Of a stretch of DNA of 64,000 nucleotides, positions 29,132 through 39,046 are shown one piece after another. The position numbers were made by a program, and so were the translations under genes. The DNA comes from Asaia bogorensis. GTDB lineage: Bacteria > Pseudomonadota > Alphaproteobacteria > Reyranellales > Reyranellaceae. Where the stretch lies: the NCBI GenBank assembly GCA_945889625.1, contig CAMDCE010000023.1:1-64000 (forward strand), written 5' to 3'. The first letter of the stretch is position 1. Every line of letters starts with the position of its first letter. A model generated the notes under the pieces. That model searched no databases and was not told the DNA's origin. It saw only the letters and a program-made list of their open reading frames with translations.

Positions 29132-29968
29132 ATGCTGATCGCTGACGCCCAGGTTCATATCTGGGCGGCCAGCACGCCCGAGCGGCCGTGGCCGGCGCGG
29201 CACCCGCCGCACCGCGAGCCGCTCGACAAGCATGAGCTGCTGGCCGAGATGACCAAGGCGGGCGTCGATCGCGTGGTGATCGTGCCGCCGTCCTGGGAGG
29301 GAGATCGCAACGATATCGCCAACGATGCGGCCCTTAGCCATCCCGACCGCTTCGCCACCATGGGCCGCTTCGACCCCGATGCGCCCGGCGCGCGCGAGGC
29401 GATCAAGGGCTGGAAGAAGCAGCCCGGCATGCTCGGCGTGCGCTTCACCTTCCATACCGACGTGCTACGCCAGCCGCTGATCGACGGCCGGTACGACTGG
29501 GTGTGGGGCGAAATGGAGAAGGGCGGCATTCCGGCGATGGTGCTGTTCCACCACGAGTACATGCACCTCGCCGACAGGCTGGCCGAGCGCTACCCCGGCC
29601 TGCGCCTGGTGCTCGATCACCTTGGGCTGAAGAGCGGCAAGGATGTCAGCGAGGCCACCAACTTCGCCACCCTCGACAAGGCGCTGGCGCTCGCCAAGCG
29701 GCCCAACGTGGCGGCCAAGGTCTCGGCCATGCCGTGCTACGCCGACGACAAGACCTATCCCTTCAAGTCGGTACATCGGCACATCAAGCGCGTGTTCGAC
29801 GCTTTTGGGCCCAAGCGGACCTTCTGGGGCACCGACTGGTCGCGGCTGCCCTGCAGCTACCGCCAGGGCGTGACCATGTTCACCGAGGAGATGCAGTGGC
29901 TGAAAGGCCAGGACCTCGAATGGGTGATGGGCCGCGGCATCTGCGAATGGATCGGCTGGAAGGCCTGA
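29132..29968 (+). CDS. Amidohydrolase family protein (amidohydrolase_2)
   Basis: [11 protein letters not shown]...[16 protein letters not shown]-like...LVLDHLGL...[15 protein letters not shown]. Confidence 0.88.
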
Positions 29969-30016: not shown

Positions 30017-30988
30017 CTAGAGCTTGCGCATCACCATCTGCGAGCCGCCGCCCCAGATTGGCAGATAGCTCATCTTGTAGCCGGCACCGCCGGTGACGAT
30101 GGGATGGATCGCCTCGGGCGACTTGGCAACGCCCTGGCCTTGGTCGAACACGTAGCGTTGCACACGGCCGATATCCCAGCCGTCGTGACGCACGATTTTC
30201 TGCGCCATTTCGAGCGGCAAGAGGAAGACCTGCTCGCCGCGCTCGTTCTTGCGGCTGATCCCCGACATGACGATGGCGGCACGCATGCCGGCGACAATGG
30301 GCGACAGGATCGCCTCCGGCGTCGCGCCCTCGCCGTCGCCCGGCAGGACCTCGGCGGTGCCGGAGATGCCCATCACCGTGATCGCGCTCACGTCGTCGCC
30401 CAGACCATGGCGCGCCGTCAGGGTGGGGAAGGGCCCGTCGTTCCTCTCGGCGAAGCAGAGGGTGTATTTGCCGGGCTGGCCCATGGTCGCCATGTCGCCG
30501 GTATCGGAGCGCGCACCGCCGATGTTGCGGATGCAGAGCTGCAGCGCCCGGCCGATCGATGCATTGGCGCGGCTGCCGGGGCCGAGGCAGTTGGTTCCCG
30601 CATTGACCTCGAGCTTGCGGGCAATAGGCCCGTGCACACAGAGTGCCACGCAGGCGGTGCCGGTCGTGGTGGCAATGCCCAGCAGGTTGAAATCGGCTTC
30701 CAGCGTGGCCTCGGCAGCCGCCAGCACGACCGGTAGCTCGGCCGGGCGGGCGCCGGCGATCACGCATTGATAGGCGATGGACTCAGGGGTGATGTCGCCG
30801 AACATCGGCGCCATCATGCCGTGTGATCTCATGCGGTCGGAAATTCCGGCGACCATCGCCTCGAGGCGGCGCCGTGTCGGCGGCACCAGCGGCAGGCCGT
30901 CCGACAGCTCGGAGTCGGTCAGGATCTGTTGGGCGCTCTCCCAACCAGTCGTCTCCTCGACGACCGGCCAGCCGCACCACTCGGTCAT
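30017..30988 (-). CDS. Unrecognised-family protein, paralog of 30985-32022; UGSC-operon member
   Basis: 323 aa; NAGTNCLGPGSRANASIGRALQLCIRNIGGA...GKYTLCFAERNDGPFPTLTARHG parallels the upstream gene. Confidence 0.8.
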   Translation of the reverse strand: MTEWCGWPVVEETTGWESAQQILTDSELSDGLPLVPPTRRRLEAMVAGISDRMRSHGMMAPMFGDITPESIAYQCVIAGARPAELPVVLAAAEATLEADFNLLGIATTTGTACVALCVHGPIARKLEVNAGTNCLGPGSRANASIGRALQLCIRNIGGARSDTGDMATMGQPGKYTLCFAERNDGPFPTLTARHGLGDDVSAITVMGISGTAEVLPGDGEGATPEAILSPIVAGMRAAIVMSGISRKNERGEQVFLLPLEMAQKIVRHDGWDIGRVQRYVFDQGQGVAKSPEAIHPIVTGGAGYKMSYLPIWGGGSQMVMRKL

Positions 30989-32022
30989 CGCGCGATGCGC
31001 GTGCAGGCGACGGTCGTGCCGCCGAACGAAGGGATGAAGGCCGAGTGCTTGCCCGGGCCGCCCGCCACAGTGATGTGGATGTCGTTCGGATTGCGCCCGA
31101 TCGTCAACCAGTCGCCGTCCGGCTTGTGGCCGGTCGAGGCGTAGGTCTCGAGGTTTTCCTTCGAGACGCGCGACAGATGCACGCGCGAGCGCTTCCACAG
31201 CTCCTCGCGGATGCTCTCGATGGTGTAGCCATCGCGCTTCAGGGTCGCGGCATGCTCTGGACCGATGATCACGAACATCGGCCCCTTGCCATAGATCGTG
31301 TTGGCGCCGGGGTTGGCCATGCCGCCGGCGAAGGTCGTCAGGAGGCCAATGCCGGTGGTGCTGCCGTGGTCGTTGAGATTGTGCGGGCCTTCGCCCGACA
31401 TCACCGTGACCACATTGTCGGTCGGCGCAAAGCCGCGCTGCACGTGATAGGGCGGCCAGGGATTCTCTTCCTCGTTCTCGCCGAAGCAGAAGGTGTACTT
31501 GGCGGGATTACCCTGGGTGGAGCGATCCATCTCGCCCGGCTTGGCGCCGGCGACGTTGAGCAGCATCAGCCCCAGCGCGCGGCCGATCGTAGCGTTCGCC
31601 TGCCAGCCCTGGCCGAAGCAGTTGGAGCCGCAGTTGATGTTGAGTTCCTTGCGGATCGGTCCACTCACCATGACCATCGGCGCGCAGGAATGGGTGGTCG
31701 CGAGCGTGCCGTGCAGATTGTATTCGGGATCGAGCACGCCGCGCATCGCAGCCGTCGCCACCGGGAAGTATTCCGGCTTGCAGCCGGCCATCACGGCGTT
31801 GGCCGCGAGCGCCTGGATGGTCGGCACGACCTGGCGCGGCGGCACGGGCGGGTAGGGGCGGTTGTCGCCGCGCACCGTCTCGACGAACTTCGCCACCTTG
31901 GCCTCGGTCGGCACATAGAGCGGCATGCCGTCGCTCCAGCCCTGCGTGGTGGCGAACTCATTGAAGGTCTCGACGTCCATGTCGTCGAGATCGATCACTT
32001 CCTGGTCGGCGATGTCCTTCAT
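30985..32022 (-). CDS. Unrecognised-family protein, paralog of 30017-30988; UGSC-operon member
   Basis: 345 aa; NCGSNCFGQGWQANATIGRALGLMLLNVAGA...AKYTFCFGENEEENPWPPYHVQRG; ATG overlaps the TGA of the upstream selenoprotein gene (ATGA). Confidence 0.8.
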   Translation of the reverse strand: MKDIADQEVIDLDDMDVETFNEFATTQGWSDGMPLYVPTEAKVAKFVETVRGDNRPYPPVPPRQVVPTIQALAANAVMAGCKPEYFPVATAAMRGVLDPEYNLHGTLATTHSCAPMVMVSGPIRKELNINCGSNCFGQGWQANATIGRALGLMLLNVAGAKPGEMDRSTQGNPAKYTFCFGENEEENPWPPYHVQRGFAPTDNVVTVMSGEGPHNLNDHGSTTGIGLLTTFAGGMANPGANTIYGKGPMFVIIGPEHAATLKRDGYTIESIREELWKRSRVHLSRVSKENLETYASTGHKPDGDWLTIGRNPNDIHITVAGGPGKHSAFIPSFGGTTVACTRIAR

Positions 32023-32537
32023 TTCTTCGTCGCCTCGAAAAGGCCCTTGGTTGCGGTTTCGATGCGCTCGCGCAGCTCCTCGGCATTGAGACCGCCAACC
32101 GGATGCTTCACGACGATAAGCTTCGGCTCGATCTTGCGGGCTTTCGCCTGGGCAAGAACCAGCGGCTTGAAGGTCTCAGTGGCGATCACGTAGGCCGTGA
32201 TGCCGAGCTTCTCGAGTTCGATGCTGTCGTGGAAACTCCACGATGAACAGCTTCCTCAATCACCTAGCGCAAGGAGCGCCCCGCGATACTTCCCGGCGAC
32301 CGCTGCGATCAGATCCTTGGGAGCGGGCTGGCTCGCGCTGTTCTTCGCGTGAAACTCGATGTTGTCGACATTGCGGGTGGCGCCGAGCTTCTCGCGGATG
32401 CCCATCAGCAGCTCGCGCGCATTGGGCTTGGAATTGGAGACGAGGGCGATGGCATCGGTCGCCCAGTTGATGGGCTTCAGCGCCACACTCGGCCCCCCGG
32501 CAGCGGCAAGACCGAAGGTCGGATTGTAGATACGCAT
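32019..32537 (-). CDS. Probable UGSC-motif selenoprotein (172 aa including Sec at UGA 32256-32258)
   Basis: MRIYNPTFGLAAAGG...KYRGALLALGD-[TGA]-GSCSSWSFHDSIELEKLGITAYVIATETFKPLVLAQAKARKIEPKLIVVKHPVGGLNAEELRERIETATKGLFEATKK*; frame open for 78 codons past TGA; downstream hairpin; SD GAGGAGAAACCGCC before ATG. Confidence 0.85.
32223..32251 (-). promoter_or_regulatory. Candidate bacterial SECIS element
   Basis: mRNA: UGA-GGAA-GCUGU-UCAU-CGUGG-AGUUU-CCACG-ACAGC; two perfect 5-bp stems, 4-nt bulge, 5-nt loop with G at position 2. Confidence 0.7.
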
Positions 32538-32549
32538 GGCGGTTTCTCC

Positions 32550-33421
32550 TCAACTCTTCTTCAGGACCGCTACGACAGCCTGCGCGGCGCGTTGTCCGTC
32601 GGCGATCGCCTCGGATAGATAATGCCGCGCCCCGGCCCGCACGTCGCCCACGGCAAAGACCGTCGGCGCCGAGGTGCGGCCCTCGGCGTCGACAACGATA
32701 TGCCCTGAAGCGTCACGCGCAAGCGAATCCGGCAGGAATTCCGCAGCGGGAGATTGGCCGACATAGACGAACACCGCGCTCGCCGGCACGGTCTGTCGCA
32801 CTCCGGCGGCCTCGATGACGACCGACTGCAGGCCATCTCTGCCTTGCAGTGCCACGATGCGGCCATCGACGCGCGAAATCCCGGCAGGCGTCTCGGCCGG
32901 CGAGGTGTCGATCACGGTGACGCCGCTTGCGATGCCGAGCAGCTCGCGCGCTTCGAGTGCCGCCCAGCCGGCTGCGCCGGCCACGATGACAGGCAGGCCG
33001 GCATAGAGCGGGCCGTCGCAGGCCGCGCAGTGGGAGAGGCCGCGGCCTTCGTAGTCGGCCTCGTTGGGCAGGCCAAGCTTGCCCTTGCTGAGGCCGGTGG
33101 CGATCACCACGGCGCGGGCGGTGTGTTTTTCACCCTCGGCGGTCTCGACTGTCCATGGGCCGTTGCCTGCGATGCGCACGACTTCGCCAAAGCCCATTTC
33201 AGCGCCGGCGACGACGGCCTCGTCGGTCAGGCGTGCCGCCATGTCCGGCCCATTCCAGGGCTCCTCGAATTCGTGCAGTTCGCCGAGGTTGATCAGCACC
33301 CCACCGGGCGCCAACTTGTCCAGGCACAGGCACTTCAGGCCGGCGCGGGCGGCTTCGGTGGCGGCAGTGAGGCCGGCGGGGCCGCCGCCGATGACGATGA
33401 GGTCGTAAGAGGGTGTGTTCA
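32550..33421 (-). CDS. Thioredoxin reductase-like FAD/NAD(P) oxidoreductase
   Basis: YDLIVIGGGPAGLTAATEAARAGLKCLCLDK, active-site-like LSHCAACDGPLYAGLPVIVAGAAG, VFAVGDVRAG; 12 nt upstream of the selenoprotein start. Confidence 0.9.
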
Positions 33422-33450
33422 TCGCGGTACTAATCGGTTTTCGCGGCCGA

Positions 33451-33667: not shown

Positions 33668-34582
<915 letters not shown>

Positions 34583-34586
34583 AACG

Positions 34587-36004
<1,418 letters not shown>

Positions 36005-36008
<4 letters not shown>

Positions 36009-36800
36009 CTGCAGAGCCGCTGATCGAGGTCGAGCATCTCACCATGCGCTTCGGCGGGTTGGTGGCGGTCGACGACGTCTCGTTTGCCGCCCGGCCGCGC
36101 GAGATCACGGCGATCATCGGACCCAACGGCGCGGGCAAGACGACGGTGTTCAACTGCATCACCGGTTTCTACAAGCCGACGATCGGCCGCCTCACCCTGC
36201 GCGGCGGCGAGCAGGCATATCTGCTGGAGCGCATGCTGGGCCACGAGATCGGCCAACGTGCGAGGGTCGCGCGGACCTTCCAGAACATCCGGCTGTTTCC
36301 CGGCATGACCGTGCTGGAGAACCTGCTGGTCGCCCAGCACAACAAGCTGATGCTGGCGTCGGGCTACAGCGTGTTCGGCCTATTGGGCTTGAAGCGCTTC
36401 CGTCTGGCCGAGCAAGCCGCGATCGAGTTGGCGCGCGGCTGGCTCGATCGCATCGGGTTGGTCGTCGATGCCGACCGGCCGGCCGGCGAGTTGCCCTATG
36501 GTGCCCAGCGGCGACTGGAGATCGCCCGCGCCATGTGCACCGGACCTCGGCTGCTGTGCCTCGACGAGCCAGCGGCCGGCCTCAATCCGCGCGAGTCGGC
36601 TGAGCTCAACCAGCTCCTGGTCTCGATCCGCGAGCGCGACGAGGTCGGCGTGCTGCTGATCGAGCACGACATGAGCGTGGTCATGAACATCTCGAACCAC
36701 GTCGTCGTCCTCGATTATGGCCGCAAGATCGCCGAGGGATCTCCGGCCGAGGTGCAGCGCGATCCGGCGGTGATCCGCGCCTATCTCGGCACCGACGAGG

Positions 36801-36817
<17 letters not shown>
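36005..36817 (+). CDS. livG: Branched-chain amino acid ABC transporter ATP-binding protein LivG
   Basis: Walker [44 protein letters not shown]. Confidence 0.95.
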
Positions 36818-37519
<702 letters not shown>

Positions 37520-37523
<4 letters not shown>

Positions 37524-37882
37524 GCCCGCTCGACACCTTCATGTTCGACTGGTTCGGCGACACGCTGCTCAACGTGGTCCTGTTCAACCTGGTGCTGTTC
37601 TGGCCTGCTTCCTTCGCGACCGGCCAGGGCATAGCCAGCACCTGGCGCCACTGGGTCAAGATTGTCTTCTACACGGGGCTTCTTTCGGCCACGTTGCGCT
37701 TTCTCGACTATGCGCTGGGCGGCGGGGAATTGTGGTCGCCAGGAGGCTTTTTGCTCGGTTGGGCGCTGCAGCTTGCCATGGGCGTCTTTGCCTACCGGCT
37801 GACCCGGGCGCGCCAGATGACCCGGCAATATCCATGGCTCTACCGACGCAAAGGCTTGTTGAGTTGGGAGGAGCGGCACTAA
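37520..37882 (+). CDS. Small membrane protein embedded in the liv operon
   Basis: 120 aa, 4-bp overlap with livF; hydrophobic MSPLDTFMFDWFGDTLLNVVLFNLVLFWPASFATGQGIASTWRHWVK. Confidence 0.75.
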
Positions 37883-37933
37883 TCTAACCGCCTTGCTCCA
37901 CCGTGGTGGAGGGGGTCAACGAGGGAGACTTGC

Positions 37934-39046
37934 ATGAGAATTACCTACGGCACGCTCGCTGCCGCAGCCGTCGCTTTGATGGCCACGCCGGCGTTCGCGC
38001 AACTCAAGATCGGCTCGGCCGGCCCGATGACCGGCCAGTACGCGGCGTTCGGCGAGCAGCTGAAGCGCGGCGCCACCATGGCGGTGGAAGAGATCAACGC
38101 CGCCGGCGGCGTGAACGGCCAGAAGCTCCAATTGATCATCGGCGACGATGCCTGTGATCCCAAGCAGGCGACGGCCGTGGCCAACAAGATGGTGTCGGAC
38201 AAAGTTGCGTTCGTGGCCGGACATTTCTGCTCGGGCTCGTCGATCCCGGCTTCGGACATCTACAAGGAAGCCAAGATCCTGCAGATCACGCCGGCCTCGA
38301 CCAATCCCAAGCTTACCGACGACGCGGCGGCCAAGGGTAACACCACTGTGTTCCGCACCTGCGGTCGTGACGACGTGCAGGGCGCGACGGTTGGTTCCTA
38401 CATCCTGAAGTTCCACAAGGGTGCCAAGGTCGCGATCCTTCAGGACAAGTCGCCCTACGGCAAGGGCGTGGCCGACGAGACCAAGAAGGCCCTGAACGCG
38501 GGCGGCCTGCGCGAGGTCATGTATGAGGCCTACAACGACACCGACAAGGACTTCACCGCGCTGATCAACAAGATGAAGCAGGCGAAGATCGACATCATCG
38601 TGCTCGGCGGCTACCACACTGCCGGCGCGCTGATCATCAAGCAGGCCCGCGAGCAGGGCCTTGGCGCGCAGATGGTCGGCTTCGACTCGCTGGAGACCGC
38701 CGAGTTCGCCCAGCTGGGCGGCGCGGCCACCAACGGCGTGCTGATGTCGTTCCCACCCAAGGCCGAGGACGACCCCAAGAATGCGGCACTCGTGAAGAAG
38801 TTCCGCGACGCCAAGTACAATCCCGAAGGCTACACGCTGTTCAGCTACGCCGCGGTCAAGGTGTGGGCCGACGCGGTCGCCAAGGCCAAGTCGACCGACG
38901 CGGCCGCCGTCGCCGCGGCGCTGCGCGCCAACAAGTACGACTCGGCCGTCGGGCCGCTCGCCTTCGACAAGAAGGGCGACATCCTGAATCCGGTCTACGA
39001 CATCTACGTTTGGAAGGACGGCAAGTCGTTCCAGACGGTCAAGTAG
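37934..39046 (+). CDS. livK: Branched-chain amino acid ABC transporter substrate-binding protein
   Basis: Signal peptide; LKIGSAGPMTGQYAAFGEQLKRGATMAVEEINAAGGVNGQKLQLIIGDDACDPKQA. Confidence 0.93.
   Translation: MRITYGTLAAAAVALMATPAFAQLKIGSAGPMTGQYAAFGEQLKRGATMAVEEINAAGGVNGQKLQLIIGDDACDPKQATAVANKMVSDKVAFVAGHFCSGSSIPASDIYKEAKILQITPASTNPKLTDDAAAKGNTTVFRTCGRDDVQGATVGSYILKFHKGAKVAILQDKSPYGKGVADETKKALNAGGLREVMYEAYNDTDKDFTALINKMKQAKIDIIVLGGYHTAGALIIKQAREQGLGAQMVGFDSLETAEFAQLGGAATNGVLMSFPPKAEDDPKNAALVKKFRDAKYNPEGYTLFSYAAVKVWADAVAKAKSTDAAAVAAALRANKYDSAVGPLAFDKKGDILNPVYDIYVWKDGKSFQTVK

Follow-up and report, generated by a model that had tools for sequence, protein, structure and literature searches.

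For one minus-strand gene in the window, the whole stretch of 64,000 nucleotides analysed here, the standard ORF list holds a 93-aa product alone, ending at a TGA. The locus raises the question of whether this TGA closes a short protein or encodes selenocysteine (Sec) in a longer one, and of what the longer protein would do. The frame starts with the ATG at 32537, comprises 93 codons up to TGA 32258-32256, continues with 78 sense codons and ends at TGA 32021-32019. The codons GGA AGC TGT (GSC) lie immediately 3' of the first TGA, which places U-G-S-C at codons 94-97. The ATG of the following gene, here termed partner gene 1 (32022-32020), shares the tetranucleotide ATGA with the distal and not with the proximal TGA. 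The open frame, the GSC and the position of this overlap had been put forward in the original prediction, and all three were found again when the sequence was re-read. As the stop codon of partner gene 1 likewise overlaps the ATG of partner gene 2 (ATGA), the trxB-like gene, the UGSC gene and the two partner genes look like a coupled operon (Table 1). With good confidence, the 93-aa ORF is regarded as the first half of a predicted selenoprotein of 172 residues, the Sec enzyme of what may be a thioredoxin-fed system composed of UGSC and partner.

Table 1. Coordinates of the features discussed in the text, with the evidence for each assignment
Feature	Position	Strand	Remarks	Evidence
UGSC-family selenoprotein gene (predicted)	32019..32537	-	172 residues if the UGA at codon 94 is Sec	profile match, orthologs, pN/pS
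In-frame TGA at codon 94, predicted to encode the U of U-G-S-C	32256..32258	-		sequence and codon counts in relatives
SECIS-like hairpin	32227..32243	-	7-bp stem, 3-nt loop G-U-U (32236-32234)	computed
Partner gene 1	30985..32022	-	345 aa, no Pfam or NCBIfam family	shares ATGA with the Sec gene
Partner gene 2	30017..30988	-	323 aa from the ATG at 30988	homologous to partner 1 (28% identity) and in tandem with it; ATGA shared between the two
Thioredoxin-reductase-like flavoprotein	32550..33422	-	immediately 5' of the Sec gene, contains CAACD (CxxC)	profile match
Amidohydrolase (PF04909)	29132..29968	+	convergent to the operon	Pfam match
Branched-chain-amino-acid-type ABC importer	33668..39046	+	permeases, ATPases, DUF6867 protein, substrate-binding protein (37934-39046); divergent	profile matches

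When the 172-aa read-through product was compared with profiles, it matched the Pfam UGSC family (PF24696) with 121.1 bits (E 7e-35; curated cut-off 25 bits). The match covers residues 3-166 of 172, 164 residues across the TGA, and the protein carries the U/C-G-S-C motif that characterizes the family. The assignment to a recognised UGSC family, made earlier from the sequence, was thereby borne out. The NCBIfam model NF041046 ('UGSC-containing protein') gave 112.5 bits, below its equivalog cut-off of 125, so that the window copy represents a divergent subfamily and is placed in the Pfam family only. The expected loss of the C-terminal half in automated annotation is seen in the ORF list, and owing to the score below the cut-off, annotation by NF041046 may miss the gene as well. 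With the rest of the family the window protein has in common the full-length Pfam match, U-G-S-C, the in-frame UGA and a host with Sec machinery, whereas its W-type motif UGSCSSWSFHD is divergent. The gene is a further member of a known, uncharacterised selenoprotein family, which ranks among the abundant selenoprotein families of ocean and freshwater metagenomes (PMC2398784). The literature found on the family assigns no function to UGSC proteins, and neither the partner nor the trxB context is described there. A literature search combining Reyranella and selenocysteine returned nothing relevant.

A first sample of 37 Reyranella genomes contained 2-5 UGSC copies per genome, nearly all with exactly one in-frame TGA. 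Orthologs of the window copy with an in-frame TGA are present in 40 of 41 Reyranella genomes (78-91% identity, the window itself excluded), and the one genome without an ortholog is 73% complete. Orthologs normally contain exactly one in-frame TGA; the two to three found in genome G033 are probably due to sequence or assembly errors. Homologs continue beyond the TGA position, and the 78-codon part is the better conserved half of the gene: the median pN/pS of 25 orthologs and the window was 0.14 for codons 95-172 and 0.31 for codons 1-93, which indicates stronger purifying selection downstream of the UGA than upstream of it. Outside the genus, the Sec column was inspected in the 81 relatives found through a scan with the partner profile; it is occupied by TGA in 76 of them, by TGC or TGT in four and by TAG in one. 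Hence Sec and Cys homologs occur at the same column, which the original prediction had proposed to check. The TAG relative, from Geodermatophilus poikilotrophus (L092:5468-5965), has the same hairpin and a partner gene. A tRNA-Sec with CUA anticodon and selenoproteins with a UGSC motif have been reported for the Geodermatophilaceae (PMC5330540). There the Sec codon of a UGSC member lies at the same column and has changed together with the tRNA, which lends independent support to Sec; Reyranella, in contrast to the system described in that report, has an ordinary UGA and a UCA tRNA-Sec. Second, distant UGSC-like stretches with an in-frame TGA and the motif U-G-S/A-C-x-P-A-V were observed near three UGSC loci (L093:2920-3321, L122:9574-10014 and L149:190-396); they perhaps form a separate selenoprotein subfamily.

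The Reyranella host genome contains all four genes for which a search had been proposed, selA, selB, selC and selD. Profile searches identified selA with 547 bits, and selD was found with 297 bits. The gene of tRNA-Sec (selC; anticodon UCA, 71 bits) is located in the same cluster as selA, and between the two sits the selB ORF, identified from its translation. Formate dehydrogenase is a classical selenoprotein, and its gene in the sel cluster (1402 bits) contains exactly one in-frame TGA. UGA 94 is almost certainly a Sec codon, predicted to be read by the host's own SelA, SelB, SelC and SelD. Regarding the organization of the sel cluster, the formate dehydrogenase gene with its single in-frame TGA is grouped with genes for a cytochrome b subunit, an fdhE-like protein, SelA, a Sel1-repeat protein, SelB and SelC (G000:C4:142162-145215 and L042), and an integrase-like gene follows the tRNA-Sec gene.

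A SECIS-like hairpin begins at a fixed position in the family, 15 nt downstream of the UGA's first base. Its loop reads G-U-N in 102 of 102 distinct Sec genes; G-U is present in none of the four Cys genes, which have G-C-N. One stem pair switches between GC and CG (74 and 28 genes), and the mean number of pairs is 6.87 of 7, compared to 4.64 +/- 0.12 after synonymous recoding, in which codons were exchanged for synonymous ones according to local codon usage. At the loop, serine is encoded by AGT in all 26 Reyranella genes, a codon that accounts for 5 of the 146 serine codons in the window genes. For the window gene taken alone, a full stem is expected in about 12% of the recodings, so that the case for the hairpin rests on the family, whose members share descent and are not independent of each other. 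A search of the SECIS region against Rfam gave no relevant match. Taken at the family level, there is strong computational support for a predicted element in which this short hairpin, directly downstream of UGA 94, would direct the insertion of Sec.

These observations bear on two other readings of the TGA. It might be a true stop, the gene being a pseudogene or coding for a truncated protein of 93 aa with the downstream frame as a relic. This would agree with the end of the called ORF at TGA 32258-32256. Against it stand the stronger conservation of the downstream half compared with the upstream one and the start of partner gene 1 at the distal stop. The TGA is moreover kept across phyla, and where it is replaced, Cys codons or, in Geodermatophilus, TAG take its place instead of random codons; a true stop is thus very improbable. 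Still less can be said for decoding of the UGA as tryptophan or by unspecific read-through, towards which nothing points beyond the open frame itself. TGA serves as stop in the neighbouring genes and as distal stop of the UGSC gene, relatives have Cys and not Trp at the site, and a complete Sec system and the SECIS-like hairpin are present, which makes this reading improbable in the extreme. The decoding of UGA as Sec is, by comparison, strongly supported by the Sec genes of the host, the family match, the Cys homologs and the conserved hairpin.

The proteins encoded next to UGSC form a family of about 320-375 aa with DG-P close to the N-terminus, Cys81 and Cys179 as near-invariant positions, and the residues R148 and E182. 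Sequence searches of the partner against Pfam, NCBIfam and the PDB yielded no match, and 'hypothetical protein' is its annotation in the plasmid records examined. The partner adjoined the UGSC gene at 60 of 60 UGSC loci from the first two family searches, and 59 of these loci were from Reyranella. A scan in which the partner profile was run against species genomes returned 80 loci across several phyla, of which 77 contained a UGSC gene within 6 kb; in 95% of these 77 the distance was at most 250 nt, and the order was mostly UGSC-partner. Conversely, a partner was found alongside 15 of 15 UGSC loci outside Reyranella that had been sampled regardless of the partner. At the remaining three of the 80 loci (L138, L143 and L094, the latter a contig of 4.2 kb) no UGSC gene was detectable near the partner; in these cases the partner may function on its own or together with a UGSC gene located farther away. 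More than one partner copy was present at 20 of the 80 loci, and such multiple copies may give rise to heteromeric assemblies. In 25 cases UGSC and partner are joined in one read-through frame that includes the Sec codon. A 574-aa UGSC-partner fusion on the Sporomusa termitida plasmid pSPTER (L163:7323-9047) has GDMGTSS at the site, with neither Sec nor Cys, and is possibly a non-redox derivative.

A UGSC/Unknown_1 fusion has been reported from the Global Ocean Sampling data (PMC2398784). There, too, a UGSC domain is joined to a conserved domain without an assigned function, and the fusions found here are probably of the same kind; PMC2398784 describes it only as a fusion, with an assumed Trx-like fold. 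The partner relation goes beyond what the literature we found says of the UGSC family. Given the linkage and the fusions, it is highly probable that UGSC and partner constitute a functional pair, which would assemble into a physical complex. The partner is not a homolog of UGSC, as a control profile comparison of the two resulted in a probability of 0.1%.

In the window the trxB-like gene precedes UGSC, and the same arrangement was found at 30 of 30 orthologous Reyranella loci fetched; no such gene stands beside the other UGSC paralogs fetched in this genus. In other lineages, trxB follows UGSC in Roseovarius, trxB and trxA precede the UGSC-partner pair in Arthrobacter, and trxB is located three genes upstream in Variovorax. 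The amidohydrolase near the operon recurs in other Reyranella contigs, and amidohydrolases and an amidase are also among the neighbours of UGSC loci. Frequent neighbours elsewhere are solute-binding proteins of the TctC type, CoA transferases and enoyl-CoA hydratase-like genes, some of them named from inspection of the sequence. The importer, TctC, CoA transferase and amidohydrolase neighbours point to the catabolism of imported small molecules, and a possible role of the ABC importer in the window would be to supply the substrate of the operon. The neighbouring genes differ between lineages, and no common substrate emerges.

The structure model of the UGSC protein (pLDDT 91.7) consists of alternating strands and helices, with Sec94 between strand 86-92 and helix 95-110. 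A Rossmann-like sandwich with the Sec at the end of a central strand is predicted from this model. A likely Trx-like fold has been suggested for UGSC (PMC2398784); this assignment was rejected, as the model lacks the beta-alpha-beta-alpha-beta-beta-alpha topology and the 50 PDB matches listed contain no thioredoxin. Among these 50, the matches were generic, of flavodoxin-like type with TM below 0.6, and the PDB search returned no structure close to either the UGSC or the partner model. For the partner (pLDDT 81.6, pTM 0.85), the best matches were class I fumarase and cyclic amide hydrolases with E of 2e-3 and above and TM of about 0.2; they were too weak for a fold assignment and were discarded. 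Profile comparison by hhalign of UGSC with the Sec domains of GrdB (selenoprotein B of glycine/sarcosine/betaine reductase) and of the proline reductase protein PrdB, represented by GrdB-like and PrdB-like sequences from Chloroflexota and Entotheonella, gave scores of 46.5 (probability 91%) and 38.3 (probability 72%), respectively, in both cases with Sec aligned on Sec. Controls with shuffled columns reached at most 24.2, the maximum for the GrdB comparison being 19.6. Since the scores exceed those of the controls, UGSC is probably a remote relative, and not a member, of the GrdB/PrdB superfamily, related to the Sec domain of the glycine and proline reductases. Neither this fold assignment nor the proposed relation to GrdB/PrdB appears in the literature found on UGSC.

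In the mechanism proposed for the operon, UGSC would be the catalytic half of an enzyme made of two proteins, the second being the partner encoded next to it and often fused to it. Sec94 would attack a small organic substrate that has been imported and that the partner helps to hold in place, and would then form a selenenyl-sulfide with Cys97. Such a cycle is suggested by the conserved UxxC together with the trxB and trxA neighbours in several lineages. The selenenyl-sulfide would be reduced by thioredoxin via the thioredoxin-reductase-like protein of the operon. That UGSC and partner act as a thioredoxin-fed reductase appears somewhat more plausible than not; that the reaction is a reductive cleavage, as in the glycine and proline reductases, is the most speculative part and is offered tentatively. 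The same UxxC motif and trxB/trxA neighbours would fit the redox work of a thioredoxin-like general thiol oxidoreductase or antioxidant, with the partner as client or redox regulator, and the fold stated in PMC2398784 would favour it. The parallel Rossmann-like sandwich predicted here speaks against such a role, as does the absence of thioredoxins among the 50 matches, and importers and catabolic genes nearby as well as the number of UGSC copies per Reyranella genome suit substrate-specific enzymes better; we consider it unlikely. In a non-redox pair, the Sec would act as a nucleophile on an imported acid or amide, in a reaction of transferase, lyase or hydrolase type. The CoA transferases, amidohydrolases and amidase in the neighbourhood are in line with this, as are the partner's faint resemblances to class I fumarase and cyclic amide hydrolases, but the selenenyl-sulfide cycle suggested by UxxC and the thioredoxin-related neighbours argues against it, and we regard it as quite improbable.

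The near-obligate partner, the fusions, the trxB-like gene nearby and a predicted fold akin to that of glycine and proline reductases give an orphan selenoprotein a concrete biochemical hypothesis. The UGSC-partner relation makes the function of the family testable, since the two proteins lend themselves to co-expression and assay. In its widest form, which we consider conceivable though somewhat doubtful, the proposal is that UGSC and partner represent an undescribed class of two-subunit or fused selenoenzymes, a counterpart of glycine/proline reductase outside the clostridia, which would use thioredoxin electrons to cleave imported substrates, with paralogs for different substrates within one genome. 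The class would extend over Proteobacteria, Chloroflexota, Actinobacteria, Bacillota and, in the Cys form, haloarchaea.

GrdB and PrdB (PF07355) share with UGSC an alpha/beta domain and a Sec in a UxxC motif following a strand, and the thioredoxin genes near some UGSC loci are counted as a further likeness. In contrast to them, UGSC belongs here to an alphaproteobacterial genus and not to amino-acid-fermenting clostridia, and the window protein had no match to PF07355 at E <= 10. The partner profile showed no similarity to GrdE, for which a single sequence was compared; GrdE and PrdA are the pyruvoyl subunits that accompany GrdB and PrdB. In the phylum of the host only two relatives of GrdB were found, both weak. 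Among the PrdB-like sequences, many short proteins were noted in Chloroflexota (L168, L171, L173-L174 and L178-L199) in which the PF07355 match ends at an in-frame TGA that is followed by xxC and a conserved continuation; these are likely selenoproteins shortened by standard ORF calling.
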